Below, one piece after another: positions 632 through 61,850 of a DNA stretch of 64,000 bases. The stretch is from Aporrectodea caliginosa (lineage: Eukaryota > Annelida > Clitellata > Crassiclitellata > Lumbricidae). The notes under the pieces were generated by a model, which ran no database searches, was not told the origin of the DNA, and worked only from the letters and a program-made list of their open reading frames with translations. Numbering within the stretch: position 1 is the first letter of the stretch; each line of letters begins with the position of its first letter. The position numbers and the translations under genes were made by a program. Location of the stretch: the NCBI GenBank assembly GCA_020284085.1, contig JACEVL010000153.1, forward strand, positions 486,001 to 550,000, written 5' to 3'.

Positions 632-682
632 TGAACGAAAATGAGCATTTATCGCGCTGCATAAAGTCGATGTGAGGGTGTC
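632..682 (-). promoter_or_regulatory. PT module (PSE-like/TATA)
   Basis: Read on the minus strand: GACACCCTCACATCG, 26 bases from ACC to GATAAATG (weak TATA), then TTTTCGTTCAGC. A Q-type block (550-590) lies downstream. Confidence 0.5.
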
Positions 683-692
683 AATGAAAATG

Positions 693-821
693 ATATTAAT
701 AATAATAATAATAATAATAATAATAATAATAATAATAATAATAATAATAATAATAATAATAATAATAATGCAATGTAATAATAATAATAATAATAATAAT
801 AATAATAATAATAATAATAAG
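693..821. repeat. (TAA)n microsatellite
   Basis: Long TAA run with one interruption near 769. It forms the 3' tail of the adjacent minus-strand SINE-B. Confidence 0.95.
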
Positions 822-1009
822 AAATAATAATAATCTTTTTTTTATTTGAAGCGCCTGACAAATGCACTGCGCTATACATTTACATGTTATGCAATTGAAC
901 ACAAATTACAGAAGACATGAATCTTAACTACTAACAGAACAGACAGCCTGCAATACACGGCGACAATTCTTTATAATTTATTATGCTAGCCTACAAAGCA
1001 TGTCGAGCC
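822..1009 (-). mobile_element. SINE-B, 5' truncated
   Basis: Antisense copy of the SINE best preserved at 41597-41832. It keeps GAAGCGCCTGACAAATG, CATTTACATGTTATGCAAT and CTAACAGAACAGACAGCC, plus a piece ending at AAAGCATGTC. The tRNA-like head is missing and extra bases interrupt the middle. The tail is the TAA microsatellite to its left. Confidence 0.8.
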
Positions 1010-1145
1010 TTCAATCTATTACAATAAATTTTCTCGGTACAGCTTGCTTGATATTTGCCATGTAAGTAAGACATGTATATTTGATGCGCTTTCTGTTTAT
1101 TTGATCATTTCAATCACACAACACTATCATAACATTGTCGGCGTA

Positions 1146-1194
1146 CCGAAAATGAACCTTTTATAGTGCGGTATAAAAGCGTTGTGAGGGTGTT
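1146..1194 (-). promoter_or_regulatory. PT module
   Basis: Minus strand: AACACCCTCACAACG, 26-base spacing, TATAAAAGG, then TTTTCGGTACGCCG. Followed on the minus strand by unrelated sequence, with no Q or R block before the SINE. Confidence 0.6.
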
Positions 1195-1429
1195 TAATTA
1201 GATATGGCCGTTTATTAGCTAGCTTTTGTAGGTCTCCAATGTTTAACGAAATCGTGCGGTGTCCAGAGCTATTGACAACGTTTCTAAATTACTCCTAATA
1301 AGACGATATAAGTTAACTGTCGAAGGGATGAATGGATGCAGAGTTTAACGACATCATTTAGCAACAAAGGCCGTTGCAGTCGACAGAAATTATTTTAAAC
1401 AGTTCTCCGTTCCTATGGCGTAGTACGGC

Positions 1430-1660
1430 ATCTTCCTGATTCTACTCCTGTTTCAAAACACGACCACCATCATCATCACCACCGATTACCACAGTAACGC
1501 CATGCTGTCTCTTCGGCTTGACCTCCACGGATTCCTGGCATCGGAACGGACATAATAACCTGGCTGTTGCAGCCATGATTTGATATATCGCCGGTGTATA
1601 AACTGGTCCCTCTGACACGGTTTTTTGTGTGGGGTCGAGAAATGTCGGGACTTGCCTTAT
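1430..1660 (+). mobile_element. LINE-a 3' end fragment
   Basis: TTCCTGATTCTACTCCTG through CATGCTGTCTCTTCGGCTTG to a TATCGCCGG block matches the C-terminal and 3' part of the LINE at 16017-17426, where it follows the coding frame directly. Part of Seg2, so copied with it rather than inserted separately. Confidence 0.6.
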
Positions 1661-1755
1661 ATTGCAAAAAGTCGGTTGATTGGTTAGTTACTATTTAAAG
1701 AAAGCATGCCATGACAAAGATGATTAGCGTCGCCCTTCTCCTTTATTCAGGAATT

Positions 1756-1816
1756 AGACACCTTTAATTTCTTTCTTTCAATGCTTATATAGGATACTTG
1801 TCATTTTCGCTCAATC
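1756..1816 (+). promoter_or_regulatory. PT module
   Basis: AGACACCTTTAATTTC, 26 bases, TATATAGG, then TTTTCGCTCAATC. A R-type block (GTTTTACAACGCTG) begins about 70 bases after the TATA. Confidence 0.65.
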
Positions 1817-2232
1817 ACAATTCCTTGGTGAGAATGGCAATTTGTTGGCTAGTAACTGTTTTACAACGCTGTTTTATAATAAAGATAATCGAACGAAAAA
1901 TTGACGTCCCCCTCCTCCTTCTGCAAGCTTGGGACAGACACCACCCGAATACGGCAGTGGCGGATTTATATCGATTACAAGTTAGTAGTCAATGTTTAAC
2001 ACCATCTTATGGCTGCAAGGACCGTTGACGTGTCCCTCCTACTTTCTCCAGGCTTGAGAAGGGAACTACCATACAATTGTGGCACTACGGCGGAGTAATT
2101 TATACAATACAATTTCGATTGACCGAAAGTGATGCATAGTATAATATCTAATGACGAAGCAACAATCGTTGGCGCTTAGCAGTTGTGGGTGAAGTACTTG
2201 TTTAAGTTCCCAATCCGGTAACAGTGTCATAG

Positions 2233-58794: not shown

Positions 58795-58850
58795 GGACAC
58801 CTTAAAAATGGAATCACACGACGCTATATATAAATATACTCGGTCAATTT
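58795..58850 (+). promoter_or_regulatory. PT module
   Basis: GGACACCTTAAAAATG, 26 bases, TATATATAAA, then ACTCGGTCAATTTC. A piggyBac-like element begins 70 bases downstream. Confidence 0.6.
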
Positions 58851-58916
58851 CTATATTCATTTCAACCTATAAGATTCCAAAGGTTATTTTTATTTTAACT
58901 GAACTTATAAGCTGTA

Positions 58917-59543
58917 TTAACCCTTTGGAGGTGAGGTGAAGCATTGTAACGTTTGAGGGGAGGTTGGGTCTGACATACCCCAATACATATAATTACTTGC
59001 AAGTCGCAATATCAACTACATAACATAAATTGTGAGCTAAACTATAGTTATGTAACCAATTATCGGCTAAACTGGTGATTTTCAGGAACAAATAACAGTT
59101 TTCAATCATAATAATATTGATATGGCCACCGTGGTGACGCTCAAAATCAAAGGGCCCTTTGCAATGGCATCTTCCTGGCCCTCGAAACATGTAACATTTG
59201 AGAACACGTGACATAATACCCGTAATAATGGATCAATTTTGCATCGATGCAACACTGTATGCAGTAATATCTTATAATCGCACAATTTTTTTTCGGCACT
59301 GTGCCGTTACTTTTTTTAATTCATTAAAATCAATATGTATACGAAAATTATAATTTCACTTTAATATGCAAGAAATATAAAAAATGGCGTCCAAAAGTAC
59401 CTGAAAGTGTCCTAAAGTGTCCGTATTTCACATTCACTAAGGTAGACAAAGATAATCCAAGCTGGTTCTACGTTTTCCGTAGAAAAAGCAGCGTAGAATA
59501 GCTATGGAGTTTGTCATACCCCACCTCACCTCCAAAGGGTTAA
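58917..59543. mobile_element. piggyBac-like element
   Basis: TTAA at both edges and a perfect inverted end CCCTTTGGAGGTGAGGTG. The interior has no open frame of interest. Its right TTAA is also the start of the inverted copy next to it. Confidence 0.85.
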
Positions 59544-60225
59544 CCCTTCACTGCATAGCTATTCTACGCTGCGTTTTCTACGGAAAAAGTTGAACCAGCT
59601 GGGATTGTTTTGTCTACCTTAGTGAATGTGCCTCAGCCTTTCTCTTCCTCTGTTTCGGAAACCTCTGAAGACTATCTTATTGTTAGAGCCTGGGTCGGGA
59701 GCGCCTCTGAATCTCTGAGTGGCGCTATACAAATGTTCAATTACAATTACAATTACAATTACAATTACAATTACAATTACAATTACGTACACTTTAGGAC
59801 AATTTAAGGTACTTTTGAACGCATTTTTTTTTATTTTGTTACATATTCAAGTGAAAATATAATTTTTTACACATGTTCATTTTAATGAATTAAAAAGGTA
59901 ACGGCTCAGTGCAAAACAAATTGGGCGATAATGGAAGATATTGCAGATATAAGATATATAGTTTTGCATCGATGCAAAATTGATGCATTATGACGGGTAT
60001 TACGGGTATTATGTCACGTTTTCGCAAACGTTCACATGTTTCAAGGGCCACGAAAATGCCATTGCAGACGGCCACTTTGATTATGAGCGCCACAGCGCTG
60101 GCCAATTAAATTTTGATTGAAAACAATTATTTGTTTCCGATAATCACCAGTTTAGCTGATAACTGGTGACAAAACTACAGTTTAGTTCACAATTAATGTT
60201 ATATAGTTGATATTGCGACTTGCAA
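59540..60225. mobile_element. inverted, partial copy of the same piggyBac-like element
   Basis: From TTAACCCTTCACTGCATAG the sequence reads as the reverse complement of 58990-59510, with an inserted LINE tail (59625-59787), and ends at ATTGCGACTTGCAAGTAC. About 28 bases of the terminal repeat are deleted. Confidence 0.75.
59625..59787 (+). mobile_element. LINE/SINE 3' end with (ACAATT)n tail
   Basis: CTGGGTCGGGAGCGCCTCTG, GTGGCGCTATACAAATG and eight ACAATT units. Inserted in the inverted piggyBac-like copy. Confidence 0.75.
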
Positions 60226-60239
60226 GTACAAAATATCGA

Positions 60240-61290
60240 AACCTCTCCATCGCCCTTTTCTGTTATCTAAACCAATCTAAAAACAAACTTCTATAGCGCC
60301 GTTATCATAATGCCCACGACTTTGGTCGTCATTCCCTTCTGCACCCAGTGACGTTTCCAATCTGCTCCAGACATTTCCCTTACGATCTTATCTGCCATCG
60401 ATTGGGATGAGACGGATGTCAGCGGAGAGCTGAGATAATAGATCAACAAAATAGACAGACAGAGGGATCTTCCGTTCGTTGAACTGGAAATGGAATGGAA
60501 CAATCCGGAAGATCTTCGAAGCAAGATTAGGATTTGTAATTCCGCGGTTGACGTCATGTTTTCCTGTTTCCTGTTATGCGCAGAAAATCAGAGAGAAAAT
60601 TGGCGTTGATTCGGTCAGAGATTGTAGCGCCATCGACGATAGAAAATGGAAACGGCGTTTGCGTTCACGTGCCATACCCGCTGATCAATGAATAAATAAG
60701 TTGAAAAACAAAGATCGAAATAAATAAATTGAAAAATAAGGGAAAAAATAAATGAATGAGGAATAAATAACAATTACAAAGGCAAACAAACAAATAAAGG
60801 CACTAGATAAATGTTCAGATACGCAGGTGAAATGTACCGACATTTAGAGGTCACTTCCGCAAACGACGGCCATCTTGAACACGATAATCGATTTAACAAT
60901 TTTATTTCCCTTCGTGTCCTTACTTTCCGAAGCACGGTGTATATACAGTATATCTTGTGTAGGGCGAAACCGTCGTAAATGGCTGGCAACGGTGACTGGT
61001 ATTTGAATACGATGATGGATACGGGTTGTTCGTGTTTCTGGTGAAATTAGAAGGCCATGGCGAGAGTCAATGCTTTTTTAACAATGAAGCTTTTGTCGCA
61101 GCAAGGTCGGAGGTTTATATCGATCAATCAATTTCTATCGCATGGCTTTTATGACATTTTCTTGACTAAGCCAGCTCTCTAACCAATCGCAGTTTTCAGG
61201 GTTGAACATCTTATGGCTACAGGGTCATTGCCGTCGACCATTCATTCACTTTAAAAATATTCGGTCATCGAGCCCCATGCATATTATTAT
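60240..61290. other. no recognisable feature
   Basis: Open frames of 70-88 codons occur at 60291-60557 (minus) and 60479-60691 (plus), overlapping each other, without known motifs. A GAATAAATAA-rich stretch lies at 60690-60800. A weak Q-type block is present at 61203-61240. Confidence 0.5.
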
Positions 61291-61298
61291 ATAACTAG

Positions 61299-61652
61299 AT
61301 GTTTGCCCGTCCTAAGACGGTTACAAACAATTTTAAAATGTCAGGAGATGCGTCTTCTCGTGCTATGATTGACATAAGTCTTCTCCCTCTCCATCCCTCC
61401 CTCCCTCCCTACCTCCCTCCCCGTACTTATCTGCCGTCCGTCCCGGCCGTCCGTACCTCCTTCCTTCCCTTCAACGCCCGTCCCTCCCTCCCCCACATCT
61501 CTCGCGGCGATCGTGCGTGGCAGACCCGCAACTACCCCTCCCCATTCCCTTATAGAAATGCAGAAGGACCCACAATCATGTCGTGTTGCATTATCTCGCG
61601 TTGCTATGACAACGTCTATATTTGGTCATTGCGATGCCGTGGAATAACGTAA
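61299..61652 (+). other. pyrimidine-rich open frame, unidentified
   Basis: A 117-codon frame whose middle is a CCCTCCCT-type tract. Starts TAGATGTTTGCCCGTCC, which recalls the left end of 22895-23645. I do not regard it as a gene. Confidence 0.2.
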
Positions 61653-61800
61653 GCCATATTGTCGAAAACAGCGTTACAGGCTTGAGACGCACGCACGCAC
61701 AGAGATTTCTGTTCTATTATATTATTAATTATTAATTATAGCATCAGTTGATTACTGTTTAGATGCGCGTTAGCAAGCCAATTCATGATATTAGTTGGCT

Positions 61801-61850
61801 ACGGTGGCGCAAATTTATATATCATTGACATACACAAGTTAAAGGTATCT
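61801..61850 (-). promoter_or_regulatory. PT module
   Basis: Minus strand: AGATACCTTTAACTTG, 25 bases, TATATAAATT, then TGCGCCACCGTAG. Confidence 0.55.

Follow-up and report, generated by a model that had tools for sequence, protein, structure and literature searches.

Thousands of small nuclear RNA-type promoter modules with a fixed TATA spacing, candidate drivers of short, locus-specific RNAs

The 64-kb stretch of DNA analysed here (the window; G000:C152:486001-550000, in an assembly of 1,097,852,775 bases and 4,544 contigs) carries 54 short promoter-like modules, 26 on the + strand and 28 on the - strand, in which a box, TTAGACACCTTTAAAACG, is followed by a TATA box that mostly starts 26 bases past the A of ACC. 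The box resembles the proximal sequence element (PSE) of the species' own U1 and U2 small nuclear RNA (snRNA) promoters, modules of this kind recur thousands of times in the genome and are locally clustered, and sequence conservation ends at the predicted start site. Judging from these sequence features, we lean slightly towards the view that the modules head tiny autonomous units, many thousands in number, each making a short RNA unrelated to the rest; the likeliest products would be precursors of Piwi-interacting RNAs (piRNAs).

An earlier sequence-only reading of the window had described 51 such modules (23 on +, 28 on -); that they exist is confirmed, and it is the number that changes. Our working set combines 47 boxes scoring above 14 bits with a weight matrix and seven weaker boxes added by eye. 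Three boxes (2345-, 21263- and 46432-) were left out for want of a TATA box, and one module that has lost its TATA box (33211+) was retained. The box-only weight matrix was derived from the same 54 modules that it then scores; their leave-one-out scores run from 8.1 to 28.3 bits. The window contains 55 boxes above 12 bits, compared with 2.2 in order-2 Markov controls and three in the reversed window, and 29 boxes above 20 bits, compared with none in the controls. In the weaker classes the window has 50 boxes at 4-10 bits, compared with 63 for the controls, and nine boxes at 10-12 bits, compared with 3.9; decayed boxes are thus not abundant.

The spacing between box and TATA is nearly constant. 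Distances written "+n" are counted from the G of GACACC, such that +29 equals a distance of 26 bases from the A of ACC. When spacing was left free, the best TATA match fell between +28 and +31 in 43 of the 54 modules, and exactly at +29 in 28 of them, compared with 6.8% of 561 control boxes; a TATA box at a fixed distance from a box near GACACCTTTAAAACG or GACACCCTCACAACG, as first described, is thus borne out. Most of the information lies in TTAGACACCTTTAAAACG and in the TATA box, and the bases in between vary while their number does not. Indeed, across the eight modules of one paralogous family (family A; Table 1), the stretch from box to TATA shows no gap event in 34 columns, compared with 8 in 95 and 8 in 100 columns for the two flanks, in agreement with the earlier remark that length is kept where sequence drifts. 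Initiator-like TTTCG and CAAT signals are also strong in the window modules, with CAAT enriched at +48 to +59.

The same arrangement is found throughout the 1.1-Gb genome. Allowing at most one mismatch, the box occurs 17,843 times (9,018 forward and 8,825 reverse), compared with 175 times (88 and 87) for the reversed pattern. The exact box with a TATA at +29 occurs 2,957 times (1,470 and 1,487), the reversed control never, and the same box with the TATA four bases nearer, at +25, only nine times (four and five); the spacing is therefore fixed genome-wide. Because only 14 of the 54 window modules satisfy the one-mismatch criterion, the genomic total may reach several tens of thousands of modules, perhaps about 68,000 as a rough figure if the window is typical. 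Among the first 100 matches listed, 45 exact modules fall within 0.89 Mb of contig C13, where the genome averages 2.7 per Mb; past this cluster, the nearest listed module is 1.0 Mb away. Forty-six more distinct modules were taken from contigs C3, C11 and C13, which were chosen because exact boxes occur there; their TATA peak has a count of 25 in one bin and of 29 in its neighbour, where 1.5 is expected. For the 25 modules of loci L087-L089, the best TATA lies at +28 to +30 in 17.

We compared the modules with the promoters of the genome's own snRNA genes. The genome contains 17 matches to U6, 45 to U2 and 30 to U1, pseudogenes included, and upstream sequence was examined for those matches whose sequence was fetched. 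The comparison was made without degenerate U1 loci (L083-L086), degenerate U6 loci (L018, L019 and L021-L026) and L015, a near copy of L014; seven U2 loci were used, the others being near-identical copies, retrocopies or fragments. The search for ACC covered the stretch from 50 to 70 bases upstream, and a U1 promoter with more than one ACC was represented by the copy closest to -55. Under these rules, 29 of the 32 distinct promoters of U1 and U2 genes have ACC 55-56 bases ahead of the RNA start, and the eight U6 promoters have it 61-64 bases ahead; PSEs are described as lying about 40-70 bases upstream (PMC9652321). CACCTTT stands at this place in 10 of 25 distinct U1 and five of seven U2 promoters, such that core and position are common to the modules and a part of the snRNA PSEs. 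Two of the outcomes that the sequence-only reading had named as fatal to a promoter, variable spacing genome-wide and a box unlike the species' own snRNA PSEs, were thus looked for, and neither result refutes it. A matrix built from the window modules alone scores highest at -58 or -59 in 18 of 26 U1 promoters and at -58 to -60 in six of seven U2 promoters.

The distance to the TATA box separates the two polymerase geometries. By eye, the six U2 promoters with a TATA have it 25-28 bases past the A of ACC, and U2 gene L029, which reads GACACCTTTTTCTTT, has exactly the module distance of 26 bases; in the U6 promoters the distance is 31-35 bases. For Drosophila, a PSE of 21 bp and 12 bp from it to the U6 TATA have been described (PMC4227766). 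Given that core, place and TATA distance match U2, we conclude that the module is probably a PSE of the host species in RNA polymerase II (Pol II) geometry. The sequence-only reading had inferred a snRNA-type promoter, with U6 and 7SK among its examples; the promoter type is well supported, and the U6 or RNA polymerase III (Pol III) geometry is not. The modules share with the U1 and U2 promoters the ACACCTTT core and its position and, for U2, the TATA distance; they differ in that their 3' half reads AAAACG where the snRNA promoters mostly have ATTT or similar, and in that no snRNA gene follows, suggesting a PSE subtype with an AAAACG end. A SNAPc (snRNA-activating protein complex) paralogue is on record for C. 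elegans (PMC7884074), and an additional one in the host would suit such a subtype. Among the U2 loci we also noted a tandem array (G000:C370:966068-975284; L034-L038) with near-identical upstream sequence at intervals of about 2.25 kb, and one copy (L044; G000:C2506:633-825) that is probably a retrocopy, since a dispersed tail repeat, described below, stands upstream in place of the usual U2 promoter.

Many window modules belong to families with common flanks, mostly 63-80% identical, which makes it possible to ask where conservation ends. Information per position, for the window and for C3 and C11, stands at 0.93-1.07 bits across the box and 0.40-0.60 bits across the TATA, and falls to 0.05-0.10 bits from +58 to +129, compared with a null of 0.03-0.09 bits. 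Of 97 module pairs, not independent of one another, that are homologous for 40 or more bases upstream, 62 cease to be so between +33 and +70 and a further seven between +71 and +110. In these three regions, then, conservation ends at the predicted start site, and the predicted product differs from locus to locus, with the pairs that stay homologous beyond +110 as exceptions. The clearest case is a pair of modules 6.4 kb apart (L005:1501 and L007:1501) that are 99.4% identical over 312 bases up to +61 and have no match in the remaining 540 bases; the break indicates that a fresh promoter copy now precedes a different sequence. Similarly, 20531+ and 27524+ share their left flank (0.81 identity), promoter (0.75) and right flank (0.84), and the 37-42 bases past ATTTCG are 0.54 identical, which is the shuffled value. 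For 28488- and 33720- the promoter (0.87) and right flank (0.95) enclose a stretch at 0.64, compared with 0.52 for shuffled sequence. Family A, whose members are homologous on both sides, has identities of 0.89 in the box, 0.67 and 0.69 in the left and right flanks and 0.52-0.53 in the post-TATA stretch, or 0.604 compared with 0.542 for shuffled sequence with a pairwise aligner. With that aligner the stretch is lower than both flanks in only 19 of the 28 non-independent pairs, and this family on its own is modest evidence.

We found no conserved body behind the promoters. Runs of four T within 60 bases downstream are no more frequent (35% of modules) than in random sequence (36%). Mean folding z-scores range from -0.32 to 0.17 across 20 offsets in the 54 modules, resembling the random control (-0.23), so there is no sign of a hairpin family. 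An Rfam scan of the window gave no known RNA gene at the gathering score, and no snRNA gene after the modules, and ARAGORN found no tRNA. The lack of hairpin, terminator and conserved body would be expected if only the first few dozen bases of each transcript matter, as for a guide RNA.

What does recur downstream are two kinds of repeat. Thirty-seven copies of a twister-P1-like ribozyme lie in the window at E values below 0.05, and Rfam family RF03160 matches 14 stretches, the best at 54.9 bits (E value 1.5e-9), all under the gathering score of 67.2. Copies occur at 42582-43196 (+), 48608-48667 (-), 35345-35404 (-) and 30-odd other places, some in tandem at spacings of 113-186 bases, and they have decayed across a wide range. 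No P1 partner is seen upstream of them, and they apparently lack stem P1. The twister helices are paired in 78% of cells in 18 copies, compared with at most 47% in slid versions, and are not better than shuffles; since shuffles do as well, these 18 copies give little covariation. Relative to the modules, the copies lie in sense 86-98 and 159-174 bases downstream or, in family A, in antisense 189-210 bases downstream. The second repeat, a tail repeat with the ends GTCAACGGCC..GTCGTTAAAC, lies in sense 50-200 bases downstream of 27 of 101 modules, compared with 4.9% for random positions, and in antisense at +60 to +210 of none of the 101; upstream of modules, too, there are nine copies in sense, at 31-90 bases. 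We read both repeats as possibly landing behind the promoters, through trapping, targeted insertion or shared descent. In the dispersed form GTCAACGGCCTTTGTTGCCATAAGATGTCGTTAAAC, 36 bases long, the tail repeat has 76 copies with E values under 0.01 across the scanned sequence; the window accounts for 37 of these (for example 26446-26481 on + and 48686-48722 on -), and others lie in L087 and L088. Two candidate roles for it were rejected: as a snRNA 3' box, it was not seen in the 70 bases after the U1 and U2 genes examined, and as a structured hairpin, it has an outer stem that covaries no more than shuffled versions do.

Other features of the window were noted as well. A 27-base minisatellite of about 72 copies (55035-56962) has long open frames on both strands. 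LINE-like (long interspersed nuclear element) reverse transcriptase pieces (PF00078) lie at 16026-16847 (+; E value 1.9e-08) and 36801-37199 (-; E value 6.8e-13). SINE-like (short interspersed nuclear element) repeats with TTGTA or ACAAT tails lie at 2520-2940, 4140-4540 and 51776-52147; ARAGORN reports no tRNA in them, and they contain segments that we take to be tRNA-like. Elsewhere in the assembly, a second COI copy on a long contig (G000:C70:3435453-3436790) scores the same as the copy in the 15,120-base contig C4544 (4612-5949), and is either a nuclear copy or an assembly artefact. Read with the invertebrate mitochondrial code, the COI gene of C4544 suggests that the host may be a lophotrochozoan and not a nematode; a further hint is that one relative of a window reverse transcriptase, at 57% identity, bears the name of a bacterium that is an earthworm symbiont. 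Searches were also made in outside collections, which may omit the window's own genome: the exact PSE pattern had no match in viral_contigs, the twister core none in viral_contigs or genome_contigs, window positions 42400-43200 none among plasmids, and protein P0003 no confirmed relative in genome_contigs. A looser PSE pattern matched viral contig L001 within a dense array of open frames, which we read as chance.

Table 1. Promoter modules and representative twister-like repeats of the window, in window coordinates
Feature	Position	Strand	Basis or remark
Module 682-	646..685	-	PSE box + TATA, weight matrix
Module 1194-	1158..1197	-	weight matrix
Module 1757+	1754..1793	+	weight matrix; family A
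Module 3385-	3349..3388	-	weight matrix
Module 3635-	3599..3638	-	weight matrix
Module 4631-	4595..4634	-	weight matrix
Module 5225+	5222..5261	+	weaker box, by eye
Module 6445-	6409..6448	-	weight matrix
Module 6771+	6768..6807	+	weight matrix
Module 7430+	7427..7466	+	weaker box, by eye
Module 8184-	8148..8187	-	exact consensus box, TATA at +29
Module 10180-	10144..10183	-	weight matrix
Module 11148-	11112..11151	-	weight matrix
Module 14043-	14007..14046	-	weight matrix
Module 14505+	14502..14541	+	weight matrix; family A
Module 14786-	14750..14789	-	weaker box, by eye
Module 18608+	18605..18644	+	weight matrix
Module 19395+	19392..19431	+	weight matrix
Module 20275-	20239..20278	-	weight matrix
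Module 20531+	20528..20567	+	weight matrix
Module 21034+	21031..21070	+	weight matrix
Module 22775-	22739..22778	-	weight matrix
Module 24460+	24457..24496	+	weight matrix
Module 25636-	25600..25639	-	weaker box, by eye
Module 25926-	25890..25929	-	weight matrix
Module 26295+	26292..26331	+	weight matrix
Module 27524+	27521..27560	+	weaker box, by eye
Module 27970+	27967..28006	+	weight matrix
Module 28488-	28452..28491	-	weight matrix
Module 28986+	28983..29022	+	weight matrix; family A
Module 30102-	30066..30105	-	weight matrix; family A
Module 32059-	32023..32062	-	weaker box, by eye
Module 32491+	32488..32527	+	weight matrix
Module 33211+	33208..33247	+	weight matrix; box kept, TATA lost
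Module 33720-	33684..33723	-	weight matrix
Module 35091+	35088..35127	+	weight matrix; family A
Module 36248-	36212..36251	-	weight matrix
Module 37502-	37466..37505	-	weight matrix
Module 38193+	38190..38229	+	weight matrix; family A
Module 38561-	38525..38564	-	weaker box, by eye
Module 40793-	40757..40796	-	weight matrix
Module 41834+	41831..41870	+	weight matrix
Module 42423+	42420..42459	+	weight matrix
Module 43519+	43516..43555	+	weight matrix
Module 44791+	44788..44827	+	weight matrix
Module 48841-	48805..48844	-	weight matrix
Module 49501+	49498..49537	+	weight matrix; family A
Module 50123-	50087..50126	-	weight matrix; family A
Module 50854+	50851..50890	+	weight matrix
Module 53247-	53211..53250	-	weight matrix
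Module 57349+	57346..57385	+	weight matrix
Module 58564-	58528..58567	-	weight matrix
Module 58796+	58793..58832	+	weight matrix
Module 61849-	61813..61852	-	weight matrix
Two tandem twister-P1-like copies, best of 37	42582..42768	+	downstream of module 42423+
Twister-P1-like copy	48608..48667	-	downstream of module 48841-

We propose that each module would act as a snRNA-type Pol II core promoter, with a PSE-like site and a TATA at U2 spacing. SNAPc is predicted to bind the PSE, and Pol II would initiate some 55 bases past the A of ACC, such that each unit would yield a short RNA unrelated in sequence to those of other units. Thousands of such units would occupy large domains on both strands. 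A new unit could arise when a promoter and its upstream flank are copied beside new sequence or, by another route, when a repeat lands directly downstream of a promoter. The likeliest products would be precursors of Piwi-bound guide RNAs, as at the nematode 21U-RNA loci. Several observations weigh against this proposal. Most U1 promoters (14 of the 25 distinct ones) lack ACCTT and mostly read ACCACAATT, and under the module matrix just eight of the 42 snRNA promoters scanned pass the 99% level of random sequence. In the 46 modules from C3, C11 and C13, the initiator-like signals, TTTCG and CAAT, are only weakly repeated. Homology persists beyond +110 in 28 of the 97 module pairs, and some pairs, such as 19395+ and 27970+, are homologous straight through; the 19 of 28 pairs in family A point the same way. 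Finally, twister copies lie downstream of many modules in a preferred orientation, which would fit a mobile-element origin too.

Indeed, the most serious alternative, which we regard as possible and appreciably less probable, is that mobile elements spread the promoter: the module would be part of a PSE and TATA repeat, perhaps twister-bearing, multiplied by insertion and local duplication and making no guide RNA. The placing of the 37 twister-like copies downstream, at preferred distances and in one orientation or, for family A, the other, is in keeping with this, as is the excess of the tail repeat in sense downstream of modules and its absence in antisense. An element of this kind should, however, carry its transcribed content with it, and here the promoter is conserved and the predicted transcript is not, with the tail repeat behind only 27 of 101 modules; the boxes, unlike the twister copies, show no excess of half-decayed forms, and in family A they are far more alike than the flanks. 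The retroposon origin that the sequence-only reading had offered as its alternative is weakened by the loss of conservation in the transcribed stretch, yet the twister repeats close downstream of many modules keep it in play. Taken as a whole, that reading's interpretation is partly supported.

It is unlikely that the modules are instead binding-site arrays with no short RNA genes attached, for example to retain SNAPc or shape chromatin, or the outcome of an expansion of dead snRNA promoters. No conserved product is visible, and the species' own snRNA genes have pseudogenes, both of which would suit such an origin, but the fixed TATA spacing and intact boxes are hard to explain without transcription. 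We consider it very improbable that the modules drive U6-type Pol III genes for short noncoding RNAs. In human genes the combination of PSE and TATA specifies Pol III (PMC9652321), which also tells against our assignment to Pol II; here, however, the TATA distance is that of the species' own U2 genes rather than its U6 genes, and T-run terminators are not enriched.

A promoter-per-guide organisation of the kind that we favour has a precedent. The nematode piRNA motif derives from a snRNA promoter and marks more than 10^4 clustered loci (PMC6436959, PMC7917550), and the modules share with the type I piRNA (21U-RNA) loci and their Ruby motif a snRNA-promoter-derived element at more than 10^4 clustered sites (PMC6436959) and variable sequence directly after the start (PMC3597512). 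For the YRNT-like initiator of the 21U loci there is at most a possible counterpart, the CAAT signal of the window modules, which is weak elsewhere. The nematode loci lack a TATA box in the account cited (PMC6436959), whereas 43 of the 54 modules have one at +28 to +31, and this difference counts against the parallel. Since a TATA is present and the RNA is a prediction, we do not class the modules as members of the nematode 21U type. We consider it quite possible, if somewhat short of probable, that motif-driven guide-RNA genes evolved a second time, in a distant animal, through the copying of its Pol II snRNA-type promoter, as an AAAACG subtype, into many thousands of units, which would trap repeats such as twister and turn them into sources of guide RNA; according to one account, the piRNA motifs of C. 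elegans act as traps that catch transposons inserting downstream of them (PMC3597512). Among the leading matches in the open-licence literature, we recognised no snRNA-type promoter swarm outside nematodes. If the modules are active, a snRNA-type promoter has been recruited at thousands of sites in what is probably a non-nematode animal, and one-promoter-per-guide systems would then have arisen in a repeatable way that is open to study. Even without guide RNAs, an intact promoter in such numbers ahead of changing sequence calls for an explanation.

Two further systems invite comparison. Metazoan retrozymes and twister elements resemble the module locus in their short, partly tandem, self-cleaving ribozyme repeats, and RTE retrotransposons are mentioned as carrying truncated twister ribozymes at their 5' end (PMC7761336, a review). 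In the section of that review cited here, retrozymes seem to be without promoters; in the window, by contrast, conservation holds for the promoter and fails in the body. In the annelid Capitella, piRNA loci show discrete, repeated peaks that, according to the authors, may be discrete transcription units (PMC8915122). These atypical loci are like the modules in consisting of discrete repeated sites, and unlike them in that they derive from simple repeats, with no promoter motif reported in the portion of that paper cited. If active, the modules would suggest a possible mechanism for the unexplained discrete piRNA peaks of this annelid.

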